The notes under the pieces are model-generated. The model was not told where the DNA came from, ran no database searches, and saw only the letters and a program-made list of their open reading frames with translations. A stretch of DNA of 34,522 nucleotides from an archaeon (GTDB lineage: Archaea > Micrarchaeota > Micrarchaeia > Anstonellales > Anstonellaceae): assembly GCA_020056635.1 (NCBI GenBank), contig JAGVHI010000009.1, positions 1 through 34,522 on the forward strand. The letters run 5' to 3'. Below, piece after piece: positions 4,811-12,996 of this stretch. A program made the translations under genes and the position numbers. Position 1 is the first letter of the stretch. The number at the start of each line of letters is the position of its first letter.

Positions 4811-6004
4811 ATGAACGAATACACGATGTACAAAAGCCAGACCAATTTCGAGCAGGAGCTGGGAAGATTGAAGGCTTCCTCTTTGCCCGCTAAAGCCAAA
4901 ACGCAAATTGAGAACTTCGCCCGGATGCGGCTTGCGAAAGGCTCAGGCAAGCTGCGCGTCGTGAAGTGCATGTATTGCGTGCGCTTGCTGGCTGCGTGGC
5001 TTAACAAGGATTTCTCGACTGCCACAAAGACTGATTTGATACGGTTAGTCACCGACATTGATTCCAAGAATTACTCCGAATACACAAAATATGATTTCAA
5101 AATAGTGCTCAAAATGTTCTACAAATGGCTGAAAGGCAAGGACGAAGAGTTTCCCAAGGTCATAAAATGGCTCAAGCCAAAACTGAACAACAAGGCGCAC
5201 AAGCTGCCAGAAGAGTTATTGACTGTTGAGGAAGCCCAAACACTTGCCAATTCCACAACCAATTCGCGTGACAAGGCGCTTATTTTGCTATTATACGAGT
5301 CTGGATGCAGAATCGGTGAGTTGCTATACCTGAAGCTCAGGAACGTCCAGTTTGACAATTACGGGGCTGTTTTGATTGTTAATGGCAAGACCGGAAGCCG
5401 CAGGGTTCGCATTATCGCAAGTGTTCAAATTCTCTCCCAGTGGCTGCAGGAGCACCCGGACAAGGGCAATCCCGATGCGCCCTTATGGCCTGCGAGGCTT
5501 GCGAGATATCAACCCATTCCTTGCGCTTACCCTTCAATTCTGGCGATGTTGAAGCGCACGCAGAAGGAGAGCGGAATAAGGAAGCGGATTTATCCGCATC
5601 TTTTCAGGCATTCGAGGGCAACCTCCTTGGCAAGCAAATTGACGGAAGCGCAAATGAAAGAATATTTTGGCTGGACGCAGGGAAGCGAGATGGCTGCGAC
5701 TTACGTTCATTTATCCGGGCGGGATGTGGATTCCACTCTTTTGCAGATGTATTCTCTGAAGGATAAACCCATTGAAAAAGAGCCAAAACTGGATTTGAGA
5801 ATCTGCCCCCGCTGCAAAGAACGAAATTCACCAACGCAATCATTTTGCGGAAAGTGCGGCAACCCGTTCGATGACCGGCTGCTCGTTCAGGATTACAACA
5901 AGCAGGGAAACGATCTGATGAACGCACTGTTCCAAGACCCGGAAGTAAAGGAATTTCTCATGAAGAAAGTTATCGAGAGAGGATTGGACAAATCACTTCT
6001 TTAA
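4811..6004 (+). CDS. Tyrosine recombinase/integrase with C-terminal zinc ribbon
   Basis: A 397-residue Xer-like site-specific recombinase. Residues about 10-125 form the SAM-like N-terminal DNA-binding domain. The catalytic domain (about 135-310) shows Arg in GCRIGEL (R167), Lys in GKTGSRR (K193), the HxxR box HLFRH (H263, R266) and the nucleophile in TYVHL (Y298). The usual second histidine (LGH) is replaced by Trp (GWTQ, W288), which is tolerated in some family members. Residues 332-349 form a zinc ribbon (CPRC ... CGKC) typical of some archaeal recombinases, followed by a charged helical tail. It cuts and rejoins DNA through a 3'-phosphotyrosine intermediate. It is preceded by repeat E and its own operator-promoter and followed directly by the module array. 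It could mobilise the surrounding repeat-bounded genes, or be a replicon-dimer resolvase. Confidence 0.92.
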   Translation: MNEYTMYKSQTNFEQELGRLKASSLPAKAKTQIENFARMRLAKGSGKLRVVKCMYCVRLLAAWLNKDFSTATKTDLIRLVTDIDSKNYSEYTKYDFKIVLKMFYKWLKGKDEEFPKVIKWLKPKLNNKAHKLPEELLTVEEAQTLANSTTNSRDKALILLLYESGCRIGELLYLKLRNVQFDNYGAVLIVNGKTGSRRVRIIASVQILSQWLQEHPDKGNPDAPLWPARLARYQPIPCAYPSILAMLKRTQKESGIRKRIYPHLFRHSRATSLASKLTEAQMKEYFGWTQGSEMAATYVHLSGRDVDSTLLQMYSLKDKPIEKEPKLDLRICPRCKERNSPTQSFCGKCGNPFDDRLLVQDYNKQGNDLMNALFQDPEVKEFLMKKVIERGLDKSLL

Positions 6005-6025
6005 GCGCAGCTAGGCGAGCTGCGC
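6005..6025 (+). repeat. Hairpin right after the integrase stop
   Basis: GCGCAGCT (6005-6012) and AGCTGCGC (6018-6025) form a perfect 8-base inverted repeat with a 5-base loop, starting at the base after the TAA stop. The right arm is also the left arm of module a. It could act as a terminator or 3' stem, or simply be part of the array. Confidence 0.6.
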
Positions 6026-6054
6026 AATCGCATATAAACTTCTTAGCGCAGCTC
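6017..6054 (+). promoter_or_regulatory. Array module a: 9-base inverted repeat enclosing a TATA box
   Basis: GAGCTGCGC (6017-6025) pairs perfectly with GCGCAGCTC (6046-6054). The intervening 20 bases contain ATATAAA (6032-6038). A dimer bound to the two arms would cover the TATA box. The counterpart is module c, 146 bases downstream, where both arms carry matching base changes. Confidence 0.65.
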
Positions 6055-6098
6055 AAACGTTGATTTTCACTTGATAAGAGCTATCCAAACGCCATTCT

Positions 6099-6145
6099 TT
6101 GCGCAGCTTTTCACTCCAGTATATACTACCTGCGGAGCTGCGCAA
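6099..6145 (+). promoter_or_regulatory. Array module b: 10-base inverted repeat enclosing a TATA box
   Basis: TTGCGCAGCT (6099-6108) pairs perfectly with AGCTGCGCAA (6136-6145). Between them lies the palindromic AGTATATACT (6118-6127). Another GCGCAA follows at 6151-6156. The counterpart is module d. Confidence 0.65.
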
Positions 6146-6162
6146 TAACTGCGCAAAGTTCT

Positions 6163-6200
6163 GAGCTGCTCAATCGTATATAACCATCTTTGAGCAGCTC
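6163..6200 (+). promoter_or_regulatory. Array module c: 10-base inverted repeat enclosing a TATA box
   Basis: GAGCTGCTCA (6163-6172) pairs perfectly with TGAGCAGCTC (6191-6200), with GTATATAA (6176-6183) between them. Compared with module a, G to T in the left arm is balanced by C to A in the right arm, so the dyad is kept while its sequence changes. CAAAC and GATTTT follow both a and c. Confidence 0.65.
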
Positions 6201-6242
6201 AAACCTCGATTTTTGCGCGTTCTGGTTGCCCAAACCAAAAAG

Positions 6243-6301
6243 ATTGAGCAGCTTTTTAGCTAGGTATAATATACGTGCCGAGCTGCCTAGAGCTGCTCAA
6301 T
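6243..6301 (+). promoter_or_regulatory. Array module d: 11-base inverted repeat enclosing a TATA box
   Basis: ATTGAGCAGCT (6243-6253) pairs perfectly with AGCTGCTCAAT (6291-6301). The 37-base interior holds TATAATATA (6265-6273). It is the diverged copy of module b, with both half-sites changed in the same way (GCGC to GAGC or GCTC). Confidence 0.65.
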
Positions 6302-6325
6302 GCGGACCATAATTCTTAGCTAGCG

Positions 6326-6449
6326 TTCTCGTGTCATTTTTGGCTAATCCTATTCGACGAAGCCTTAATTTTCTCGTGTAAATCTCGTGTTATTTCTATA
6401 AATAGAAAATAAGCGAAAAGCAGAAGGGGCGCTCGTGTCAATCTCGAGT
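6326..6449 (+). promoter_or_regulatory. Array module e: CTCGTGT words and a TATA box
   Basis: TTCTCGTGT occurs at 6326-6334 and 6371-6379, ATCTCGTGT at 6382-6390, CTCGTGT at 6432-6438 and a variant ATCTCGAGT at 6441-6449. A TATA-like TCTATAAATAG (6395-6405) follows the doublet. TCCTATTCGA (6348-6357) recurs beside the same word upstream of the subtilisin gene (8665-8674). Confidence 0.55.
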
Positions 6450-6524
6450 TGATGTTTGATAGTTTAGCTAGTAGCAGACAATAATATGTGGCATGTTTTA
6501 AGGGGCATTTTCTATTCAGTAAAG

Positions 6525-6639
6525 CTCGCGCATTTCTCGCGTCTTTTTCTATATATACTCTGCGCGAGAATGTGCAGCGCAAGACCTCGCGTCATTTCTC
6601 GCGCATCGTTTTTGCTGTTTATGGCGTAGCATATACTAG
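6525..6639 (+). promoter_or_regulatory. Array module f: duplicated CTCGCG doublets with TATA boxes
   Basis: Two doublets of the form CTCGCG-N5-CTCGCG occur, near 6525-6542 and 6586-6604. The first is followed by TCTATATATACT (6548-6559) and an inverted copy GCGCGAGAA (6562-6570). The second is followed by GCATATACTAG (6629-6639). The word is a one- or two-base variant of module e's CTCGTGT. Confidence 0.55.
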
Positions 6640-6660
6640 TAGGAAGCCGAACTTCGTATT

Positions 6661-6720
6661 TTCGCGCAATTGGCAATCAGAACGCAAGTTTACGCGCATT
6701 TTACGCGCAAGTTATTTTTA
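6661..6720 (+). promoter_or_regulatory. Array module g: TTTACGCGCA tandem words
   Basis: GCGCAATTG near the left edge is followed by CAGAACG, then TTTACGCGCA at 6689-6698 and 6700-6709 (11-base spacing, one helical turn), then the T/A-rich GTTATTTTTAAAG. The order matches module h closely. Extra GCGCA words at 6752-6756 and 6764-6770 lie between g and h. Confidence 0.55.
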
Positions 6721-6805
6721 AAGAAAAAGTGCAGGTTGCGCTCAGTTTTTTCGCGCAGGATTACGCGCAACGCAGGCAAATATTATCTGGGAGAAAAACT
6801 TGTGA

Positions 6806-6880
6806 TTTAAGCGCAATTGATTGCCAGAACGACGATTTAAGCGCAGAATAAGCGCAACTCCATCGTCCGTAAGTTTTTAT
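6806..6880 (+). promoter_or_regulatory. Array module h: TTTAAGCGCA words
   Basis: TTTAAGCGCAATTG (6806-6819), CCAGAACG (6824-6831), TTTAAGCGCAGAA (6836-6848) and TAAGCGCAAC (6849-6858) are followed by GTTTTTATC, a weak TATA-like sequence. The order copies module g with a changed word. TTAAGCGCAGAA plus GCGCAA also occurs upstream of the subtilisin gene (8727-8747). Confidence 0.55.
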
Positions 6881-6932
6881 CAGAGTGCAGAAAAAAGTAA
6901 GCGAGTGAATAAGCGCCTACTTCGGAGAGGTA

Positions 6933-6976: not shown

Positions 6977-7795
6977 GTGGCTACTCTTGCGTTCAATCCA
7001 GCGAAACCAGTTTCTGTAAGCAATATTCCAGTTGTCCTTTTTGGTGACCGCACACTTACAGTCAGGCTACTTCGCCCGTTTGACGATATCGTTAGAGGTG
7101 AGAGAAAATTATTCAATGCCATTTTTAGCGGAGATATAGATTCCCTAAAATCGCAGCTGAATAACGGAGCAAATCCCAACGCCACCCTAAAATGCAGGGC
7201 AGGAGCTTATCTGTCCGAAAGTTTGAGAGGGGGAACACCACTGCATGCAACAGTTGTATCTTACATATTGGCTTATGATGCGATTCGTGGCGATATTGGC
7301 AATGCCCTACATCTAAAAGGCGGGGATAGAATTCCAGAACCGTATTACTCGACTTATGACAAGGCCGTGGAACCGGTGAAGGCTGCTCAGCTGAAAATGG
7401 TAAAACTGCTGCTTTCAAAAGGAGCCGATCTCAATGGTCGTAATGCATACGGCTTCACGCCGCTTATGGCAGCCGCTTTCTGGGGCGAAACAGAGCTTGC
7501 CAAGCATTTTATCGAAAATGGCGCGGATTTGAACACCCAAGTAAAACTCCATCCAAGAGGTCATGTGTTCGAAAATTTCGTTGGATTCACTGCCCTTATG
7601 TTCGCCATAAAGCAGAATAGGTTTGACATCGCGCGCTTGCTTATCGAAAATGGGGCAGACACAAAAATAACATCAACCAGTGGAGAAACAGCCGTAAGCC
7701 TGGCAAAACATTGGGCTTCGACAGTAAAAGGATCTGAAGCGCACAACTATACTAATTGGCAGGAAGCCGAACGGCTAATCGTGATGATGGCTTAG
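6977..7795 (+). CDS. Ankyrin-repeat protein
   Basis: A 272-residue protein when started at GTG 6977, which has a perfectly spaced GGAGGAG ribosome site. The first 40 residues form a short unrecognised beta-rich lead. Then come ankyrin repeats: a first one around ERKLFNAIFSGDIDSLKSQL with NGANPN, an interrupted second one starting GGTPLHATV with a long insert of about 50 residues, a regular third (GFTPLMAAAFWGETELAKHF, then NGADLN) and a fourth (GFTALMFAIKQNRFDIARLL, then NGADTK). Ankyrin repeats bind other proteins. There is no signal peptide, so it is probably cytosolic. It follows the operator-like array and is the first gene that array could control. Such proteins are often exchanged on mobile DNA. 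The partner is unknown. Confidence 0.85.
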   Translation: MATLAFNPAKPVSVSNIPVVLFGDRTLTVRLLRPFDDIVRGERKLFNAIFSGDIDSLKSQLNNGANPNATLKCRAGAYLSESLRGGTPLHATVVSYILAYDAIRGDIGNALHLKGGDRIPEPYYSTYDKAVEPVKAAQLKMVKLLLSKGADLNGRNAYGFTPLMAAAFWGETELAKHFIENGADLNTQVKLHPRGHVFENFVGFTALMFAIKQNRFDIARLLIENGADTKITSTSGETAVSLAKHWASTVKGSEAHNYTNWQEAERLIVMMA

Positions 7796-7925
7796 AGAGC
7801 AAAGCAATGAGTGCGATTATTATAAAGTTCTCTCGCTTCCAGAGGCCGCCTAGGGAAACGCTATCCGAACGGTGGCACCTCTTGAATCAGTCAAGACGAG
7901 CACCGAGGGCATTCAGACTCTAGCA
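7796..7925. other. Gap between ankyrin and toxin genes
   Basis: The gap holds a TATA-like ATTATAAAG near 7820-7828 on the plus strand with no open frame behind it, and the short repeat copy B at the right edge. A transcript from that TATA box would run antisense into the 3' end of the toxin gene, but there is no direct evidence for one. Confidence 0.3.
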
Positions 7926-7934
7926 TCATCCTTG
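7914..7934 (+). repeat. Dispersed repeat, truncated copy B
   Basis: The first 21 bases of the repeat core are kept exactly (CAGACTCTAG then CATCATCCTTG), after which the match ends. The toxin gene's stop codon (7926-7928) lies inside it, so the last toxin codons derive from repeat sequence. Confidence 0.75.
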
Positions 7935-8210
7935 AGTTGCCTGCTTTTCTTTAGGCAGCCGTTTGTAAACCCTTTTCCGGTGGTCAACGAGAGTCACTTC
8001 TATCCTTCTTGTGCCGTGGTCTATGTCAGCAATCACCCTATAATCGCCCACGCGCATCTTGTAGTCCTGCCTCCCTTCCAGCCGCTCGAAAAAGTGCATC
8101 GGATTCTCCTTTGCAGCGGTTGCCCGCTCAAAAATCCTCTGGCGCAATTCCTTTGGCAAGCCTTCAAGGAATTCAAGGGCCTTCCTGTCGAAAATAAGCT
8201 CGTAGCTCAC
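7926..8210 (-). CDS. RelE/ParE-family toxin
   Basis: A 94-residue basic protein with the RelE-like fold signature: an N-terminal strand and helix (YELIFDRKALEFLEGLPKEL), a central KMRVGDYRVIADID (51-64) and a C-terminal VDHRKRVYKRL (75-85). Family members are ribosome-dependent mRNA endonucleases (RelE) or gyrase inhibitors (ParE); the basic C-terminus with H and R residues favours the RelE type. Its ATG overlaps the stop of the upstream antitoxin by four bases (ATGA), so the two are translationally coupled. Its 3' end is formed by repeat copy B. The toxin-antitoxin pair is the only cassette on the minus strand of the island, and such pairs commonly stabilise mobile arrays. Confidence 0.9.
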   Translation of the reverse strand: MSYELIFDRKALEFLEGLPKELRQRIFERATAAKENPMHFFERLEGRQDYKMRVGDYRVIADIDHGTRRIEVTLVDHRKRVYKRLPKEKQATQG

Positions 8211-8452
8211 AGGCCCAGCCCCTTTCTTGCCTCATCCTCAGTCACAAAGTTGCCGGCCCTTATCCTTTGCCGCGCCTTCTCAATACGCTCAACCGCATCC
8301 CTGGAAAGCGTTGGCTCCGTCTTGACCGCCTTCACGATGTTTACAAGCTTCATTACGACCTCGTCGTAACTCTCGTTCCGGTATTCCCGGTACCTGTCAA
8401 GGTGGGATTTGGTTTTCCTGTGCAGCCTGATCGTAGCTATGTCCATATACAT
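8207..8452 (-). CDS. Antitoxin of the RelE-type pair
   Basis: An 81-residue protein from the ATG at 8452; a GTG at 8455 would add one residue. The N-terminal stretch IATIRLHRKTKSHLDRY looks like a ribbon-helix-helix DNA-binding strand plus helix. The acidic and basic C-terminal half (DAVERIEKARQRIRAGNF) would wrap the toxin. Such antitoxins neutralise the toxin and repress their own promoter as dimers. The TATA-like CTTAAATATCC on the minus strand (about 8478-8488) is about 30 bases upstream of the start, implying a leaderless mRNA. Confidence 0.8.
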   Translation of the reverse strand: MYMDIATIRLHRKTKSHLDRYREYRNESYDEVVMKLVNIVKAVKTEPTLSRDAVERIEKARQRIRAGNFVTEDEARKGLGL

Positions 8453-8475
8453 CACGCATACTTAGATATATGCAT

Positions 8476-8514: not shown

Positions 8515-8600
8515 CAGACTCTAGCATCATCCTTGTGTTTCTCCCCCTGCACCTAGTATTTTACACTAGTCTTACCGCTGGCTCCCAGTCAATAGCCTAA
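8515..8600 (+). repeat. Dispersed repeat, copy C (full length)
   Basis: The 37-base core (8515-8551) is identical to copy A. It is followed by a small hairpin, CTAGT (8553-8557) with ACTAG (8565-8569), and a diverged tail (AGTCTTAC ... AGTCAATAGCCTAA). It separates the toxin-antitoxin pair from the subtilisin gene. Confidence 0.85.
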
Positions 8601-8645
8601 GGTGTTTCCGTTCATCCACTTTCGGCTTTTTCTTGCGCCTATTTT

Positions 8646-8806
8646 GACGCTTAAATTCTCGTGTTCCTATTCGAGGAACAGAAAGACTGAAAATACGCTT
8701 AACTGTTTTCTGCGCACTTTTTGGGATTAAGCGCAGAAGATGCGCAAGCGAGCCGAGTGGGAAATAATTTCGGGATAGCACATCTCATCGAGCATGCATT
8801 TATAAG
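8646..8806 (+). promoter_or_regulatory. Subtilisin upstream region with array words and TATA box
   Basis: TTCTCGTGT (8656-8664) and TCCTATTCGA (8665-8674) repeat the words of array module e. TTAAGCGCAGAA (8727-8738) and GCGCAA (8742-8747) repeat module h, and TACGCTTAA (8694-8702) is an inverted variant. The TATA box TTTATAAG is at 8799-8806. This links the subtilisin gene to the 6005-6880 array, probably through a common regulator or common ancestry. Confidence 0.6.
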
Positions 8807-12936: not shown

Positions 12937-12996
12937 CAGACCCAAGCATCATCCTTGTGTTTCTCCCCCTGCACTATACTTATGCCTGAGTGCACT
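12937..12996 (+). repeat. Dispersed repeat, copy D
   Basis: The core at 12937-12973 matches copies A and C at 35 of 37 bases. It is followed by a perfect hairpin, TGCACT (12970-12975) with AGTGCA (12989-12994). It starts 25 bases after the subtilisin stop and is the rightmost copy seen; typical chromosomal genes follow. Confidence 0.85.

Follow-up and report, generated by a model that had tools for sequence, protein, structure and literature searches.

A stack of six origin-like modules in an initiator-less integrase cassette of Micrarchaeota: candidate Orc1/Cdc6 origins, probably captured from conjugative-type elements

Introduction

Directly behind an integrase gene in a Micrarchaeota genome of 1.1 Mb lies a non-coding array in which short words are repeated around TATA-like sequences. 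What does such an array do, which proteins would recognize its words, and why should one cassette carry several of them? The original prediction, made from the window (the whole stretch of 34,522 nucleotides that was analyzed, a contig of that genome), described about eight promoter-like modules in some 880 bases, and saw in them the trace of co-evolution with several dimeric DNA-binding proteins, each specific for its word, a small-RNA family, or recombinase accessory sites. We have followed the array through its relatives in the phylum and weighed the explanations that its structure and neighborhood allow.

Results

Structure of the array

The array was compared with 1000 dinucleotide-preserving shuffles of positions 6005–6880. 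Repeated 8-mers number 95 against 27.7 ± 6.3 in the shuffles, inverted arms of 9 bp at a spacing of 13–35 bp number 9 against 0.19, and direct 7-mers at 10–12 bp number 11 against 0.35; none of the 1000 shuffles reached any of these counts, and the highest copy number of a single 8-mer, 5, was attained in 9 of 1000. The predicted dyads and duplication are present as described, the latter as a 51-bp direct repeat (6017–6067 and 6163–6213), and examples of the inverted arms are 6017–6025/6046–6054, 6099–6108/6136–6145 and 6190–6200/6290–6300. The array is thus real, but HMMs built from relatives resolve six gene-less modules rather than eight, in 6013–6918, with an end about 40 bp beyond the 6880 given before. 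Each module is one short word repeated around an AT-rich center. Words are common within a module and differ between modules, a concerted change that upholds this part of the prediction; the first two arms agree in 18 of 18 aligned modules of class M1.

All six modules were found by HMM on the forward strand. Module 1 (class M1a, 6013–6152) has AGCTGCGCAA as its word, arranged as two dyads that each enclose a TATA-like, AT-rich core, and module 2 (class M1b, 6161–6295) carries AGCTGCTCAA, with an extra word copy on the 3' side at 6291–6300. Module 3 (class M5, 6293–6452) has a direct pair of CTCGTGT ahead of TATAAATA, and module 4 (class M4, 6466–6608) has the word CTCGCGC. Module 5 (M3-like, 6629–6770) repeats TACGCGCA, and module 6 (class M3, 6770–6918) has TTTAAGCGCA in an 11-bp direct pair. 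By exact 7-mer count, modules 4 and 5 are individually non-significant (CTCGCGC, p 0.08; TACGCGCA, p 0.14), and both match relatives; among all modules, 39 of 61 reach p ≤ 0.01 and most others have three or four word copies.

The cassettes of the window

Att sites on the forward strand at 2938–2974 (core CAGACTCTAGCATCATCCTTGTGTTTCTCCCCCTGCA, similar to the 3' end of tRNA-Leu; the end of one cassette and the start of the next), 8515–8551 and 12937–12973, and a truncated one at 7914–7941 that closes the array-bearing cassette, place the array in one of several tandem cassettes. No tRNA gene was found in the window contig itself; the att sites resemble the tRNA-Leu 3' end, and the same sites bound integrase cassettes of relatives behind tRNA-Leu. 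The motif of the first site recurs at cassette ends in G004, G013, G018 and G019, an intact tRNA-Leu 3' end stands ahead of the first cassette in L167, L033 and L037, and related integrases lie behind tRNA-Thr (L048, L170) or tRNA-Leu (L058). The chromosomal flank beyond the last site is common to G004:C99. As in integrative elements of tRNA genes, an integrase is combined with direct repeats of a tRNA 3' end as cassette ends.

Upstream of the array is the tyrosine recombinase (integrase) gene (4811–6004, forward), which encodes a Phage_integrase domain and zinc-ribbon-like cysteines at the C-terminus. Downstream is the cargo, a gene for an ankyrin-repeat protein (6977–7795, forward; start codon uncertain) that has its own promoter-like sequence, TTTATAAA, on the 3' side of the array. 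A ParE-type toxin gene (7926–8210, reverse strand) and its partner gene (8207–8455) make up a toxin-antitoxin cassette lacking an integrase. Between 2938 and 12973 the tandem cassettes carry in turn a radical SAM gene, the integrase with the ankyrin gene, the ParE toxin system and a subtilase with a beta-helix, an integron-like accretion. A second origin-like module (8628–8747, forward) has the inverted words TAAGCG/GGCGCAA, of the AAGCGCA type; its homologues in L032, L034 and L035 follow integrase, membrane and nuclease-like genes.

Relatives in other Micrarchaeota

Homologous arrays, with modules in other orders and numbers, lie in tRNA-anchored cassettes of other Micrarchaeota, after integrases in G013, G016 and G018 and after other first genes in G004 and G008. 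Two architectures recur. M1 modules consist of dyads of AGCTGC[GT]CAA around a TATA-like core whose columns are nearly invariant across the 18 aligned copies. M2 to M5 modules are built on a single word, with an 11-bp direct pair and, beyond a spacer, a further word set, and within this recognizable frame four or five words change together (variants AAGCGCA, AGGCGCA, ACGCTCA, CTTGCTCA, AGGCGTA, CTCGCGC, CTCGTGT, CCGCGC and others). More distant families follow the same pattern, with ATTGTGTT (L038, L059, L082) and AGGTCGTAA/AGGTCAAA (L039). The M1, M4 and L038/L059 types have the layout of an origin; in the M3/M2 types direct pairs of the word prevail, and the second set lies some 60 bp off. 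One M1 module in L137 (1495–1636) is a hybrid, its first dyad reading GCGC and its second GAGC, which suggests recombination between modules at the level of the dyad.

The genes that flank the arrays vary, their stop codons abut modules, and the arrays are mosaic and mostly finish at the 3' ends of reversed genes. AbiE-like (L137) and ParDE-like genes are carried on the cassettes. In L082 (4895–6720, on a contig labelled Lokiarchaeota), a gene for a DUF234-like ATPase lies between modules of different words, CAGTGTG and ATTGTG.

Single modules beside an initiator gene

A search of the phylum with one M3 module returned copies outside integrase cassettes. These stand in a fixed order, orc1/cdc6 initiator, histone-fold gene, module and reversed virB4, so that the VirB4/TraG ATPase gene is tail-to-tail with the genes before it. 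Searching with the Orc1/Cdc6-like initiator brought up more such elements. Every one has a single module at this position, and the word varies by element: AAGCGCA (L232, L196, L197), CCGCGC (L229), GTCGCG (L230, L231), CGTGTA (L239), CTCGT (L240), AGCTGCGC (L169) and AGCTGCGA (L275). The initiators are real Orc1/Cdc6 proteins, with Pfam Cdc6_lid and AAA matches and a profile match of 2.2e-61 to the solved structure of S. solfataricus Cdc6-1 (2qby). Their similarity does not follow the words in a simple way, as L197 (AAGCGCA) is 65% identical to L229 (CCGCGC) and only 52% to L232 (AAGCGCA), and for the word types ACGCTCA, ATTGTGTT and AGGTCGTAA no initiator partner has been found yet.

The gene between orc1/cdc6 and the origin encodes a single histone fold of 56–59 residues (L169, L196, L229–L233, L275), with profile matches to 8fvx and 8cmp at about 3e-6 and to the DUF1931 structure 9qt0 at 4e-10. 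Palindromes of another kind, TTTCCGCGGAAA or TTTCCTAGGAAA, are found upstream of orc (L229, L253, L255) and of a gene for a small HTH protein (L041–L045, L051, L064); their central bases seem to co-vary between copies, and they may be a second co-varying regulator-operator pair.

Cassette modules compared with initiator-linked modules

Module 1 of the window agrees with the orc1-linked module of L169 at every word position (32 of 32). Module 4 is weakly homologous to the orc1-linked modules of L230 and L231 and shares a 16-bp header with L229, and module 6 is homologous to modules beside orc1/virB4 in L232, L193 and L197. Over ten pairs of initiator-linked and cassette modules, which are not independent and whose words were chosen as repeats, 268 of 275 word positions are identical (97%) against 644 of 920 other positions (70%), a large contrast nonetheless. 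Over 87 bp the L140_238 module shares 94% identity with the L229 origin, which lies in the same genome, and over 85 bp the L137 module shares 88% with the L193 origin, from the same genus. The header of an M3 cassette module encodes in frame VADKYSQEAIRLIS followed by a stop codon, matching the VirB4 C-terminus LADKYSQKAKRLKS. By these sequences, the cassette copies appear to descend from initiator-linked modules. Since the conserved frame goes back in part to VirB4 sequence, its conservation is by itself no evidence of function.

Adjacency to orc1/cdc6 is present for the homologous single modules and absent for the window array and the other stacks. Each of ten initiator-linked elements has exactly one HMM-detected module, and twelve initiator-less arrays, in whose loci no orc1 homologue was found, have two to six each (Mann-Whitney p 5.5e-5, a value on which we place no weight, the arrays being partly hand-counted and not independent). 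The contrast is a tendency, since single-module initiator-less cassettes exist too (L059, L092). In L170 (L104) the histone-fold gene is kept beside a five-module array with no orc1, which is the intermediate that would be expected under origin capture.

Discussion

Since single copies sit at a fixed place beside orc1/cdc6, with a word that differs by element, we read the modules as Orc1/Cdc6 replication origins, and we regard this as very probable. The words would then be ORB-like boxes and the TATA-like sequence a DNA unwinding element, and probably neither is a promoter. Published archaeal origins have an AT-rich region with inverted ORBs on both sides next to cdc6, and cdc6 and ORB are linked in specificity (PMC4010727, PMC3528665); the present modules likewise hold several copies of one repeat per origin. 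The predicted co-evolution with specific DNA-binding proteins is the best fit of the earlier proposals, but these proteins are most likely the Orc1/Cdc6 initiators of other mobile elements. Directly observed are the homology of the modules and their position beside orc1/cdc6, the conservation of the words, the lack of orc1 near the arrays and the att/tRNA boundaries.

How could six origins of different specificity come together without an initiator? We propose that an integrase cassette anchored at a tRNA captured the origins of several conjugative elements, one after another, each word being the ORB for the initiator of one such element and each AT-rich core its unwinding element. The tyrosine integrase would excise the cassette, and any helper present in the cell would supply the Orc1/Cdc6 for its replication in trans, so that a cassette with stacked origins could use more helpers. 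We infer that initiators bind the words, that the origins fire, that the cassette is excised and that it gains from having several helpers. In Haloferax and Haloarcula, autonomous replication does not require cdc6 in cis (PMC4010727). Neither a helper orc1 nor VirB4 was found in the window's own genome, which is 79% complete, and for this reason the cassette may be resting between helpers. This finding counts against the account, as do the loose relation between initiator similarity and words, the word types that lack an initiator partner and the two individually weak modules of the window. We hold the full account, with six captured origins, an initiator-less tRNA-anchored cassette and replication in trans, to be somewhat favored; on the role of the array in trans, taken for itself, we are evenly divided. 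The chances are about equal, too, that initiator-less cassettes of Micrarchaeota are multi-host replication satellites in general, with heterologous origins re-tuned in concert with the initiators of their helpers, any of several of which could be used.

The main rival to replication in trans is titration. The array could be a decoy, a cluster of origins or boxes that titrates the initiators of incoming conjugative elements, for incompatibility or defence, and does not replicate the cassette. There is a precedent in Haloarcula, where an ORB cluster downstream of oriC2 was proposed to repress that origin by Cdc6 titration (PMC4010727). Words for several different initiators would suit a broad defence, and the AbiE-like and ParDE-like genes on the cassettes fit with it. 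However, a decoy would have no need of the AT-rich cores and whole-origin spacing that are retained (TATA columns of M1, n=18), and the presence of an integrase and att sites points to an excised circle as a stage of the life cycle. We consider titration rather unlikely, if still the reading to be taken most seriously after replication in trans.

A recombination scar is improbable. It would consist of 3' tails of conjugative elements that stayed behind after rounds of recombination or of co-integration driven by homology and that have no present function, and the VirB4 C-terminal relics in the headers, the mosaic arrays and the variable genes whose stop codons abut modules on both sides are what it would leave. 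The far stronger conservation of the words than of the rest and the retention of complete modules across many loci and genera argue against it. Least probable of all is that the modules are small-RNA genes, or promoters or operators recognized by a family of regulators that the elements encode: inverted words do lie on both sides of TATA-like boxes, with co-varying regulator operators nearby, but the constant neighbor is orc1 and not a transcription regulator, forward cargo such as the ankyrin gene comes with a promoter-like sequence of its own, most arrays end where reversed genes have their 3' ends, and direct-repeat modules have no RNA fold.

The label "promoter-like" was probably wrong, as a TATA-like sequence between inverted words matches the unwinding element of archaeal origins. 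A small-RNA family was likewise rejected: a fold better than that of shuffles is limited to the dyad (M1) modules (z −3.8 and −6.5), Rfam matches are at chance level, and no consistent fold, nor a conserved one with compensatory changes outside the protein-site words, was found outside the dyads. Recombinase accessory sites, or integrase arm and core sites, do not account for modules that stand beside orc1/cdc6 and virB4 and occur where there is no integrase, with words independent of integrase type. Integron attC sites were rejected as well; the cassette ends are tRNA-like sites elsewhere, and modules lacking an integrase are found beside orc1. In chromosomal-type orc1 loci the words occur at most as scattered copies, one or two together, and form no array-like cluster, which speaks against a host chromosomal origin. 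An origin with iterons from a known plasmid or virus had been named as the finding that would overturn the prediction. This is half borne out: the type is probably that of an origin, but blastn gave no match in plasmid and phage collections, and viral contigs held neither the M1 pattern nor a relative of the initiator; such arrays were found in none of these. In the part of the open-access literature that was covered, we found neither multi-origin arrays that lack an initiator nor these Micrarchaeota elements described.

If the account is true, borrowing replication origins, several at once, is an added mode of parasitism between mobile elements, and a conjugative-type helper and cassette system, both parts apparently undescribed, is defined for uncultured Micrarchaeota. 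The elements would also supply natural pairs of an initiator and its matching boxes, with four to five boxes changing at once, on which the evolution of Orc1/Cdc6 specificity could be tested directly.

Comparison with known systems

The closest likeness is to archaeal origins with ORBs beside orc1/cdc6, especially those of haloarchaeal multi-origin replicons (PMC3528665, PMC4010727), which also have an AT-rich core between inverted origin-specific repeats, a word specificity tied to the neighboring orc1/cdc6, and origins gained from extrachromosomal elements. Those origins lie beside their own initiator, one per initiator, whereas here up to six specificities stand head to tail in 0.9 kb with no initiator. 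The clusters at Haloarcula hispanica oriC2 and E. coli datA, which are linked to titration (PMC4010727), are likewise groups of initiator boxes away from the initiator gene, but their boxes are of one specificity and serve the replicon's own initiator. Integrons resemble the cassettes in that a repeat array comes after the integrase, att-like sites part the gene cassettes, and sites start at stop codons; they differ in that attC-like sites are absent here, tRNA-like att sites at other places, and not the array, are the sites of recombination, and the integrase is a general archaeal tyrosine integrase. Integrative and mobilizable elements with tandem accretion at tRNA genes (PMC5704250) share the integrase, att sites at tRNA 3' ends, tandem accretion, integrase-less cassettes and an apparent parasitism of conjugative elements. 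Known relaxase-less islands, such as the MGIs mobilized by SXT, borrow the oriT of a helper; the cassettes described here would borrow the replication origins of several.
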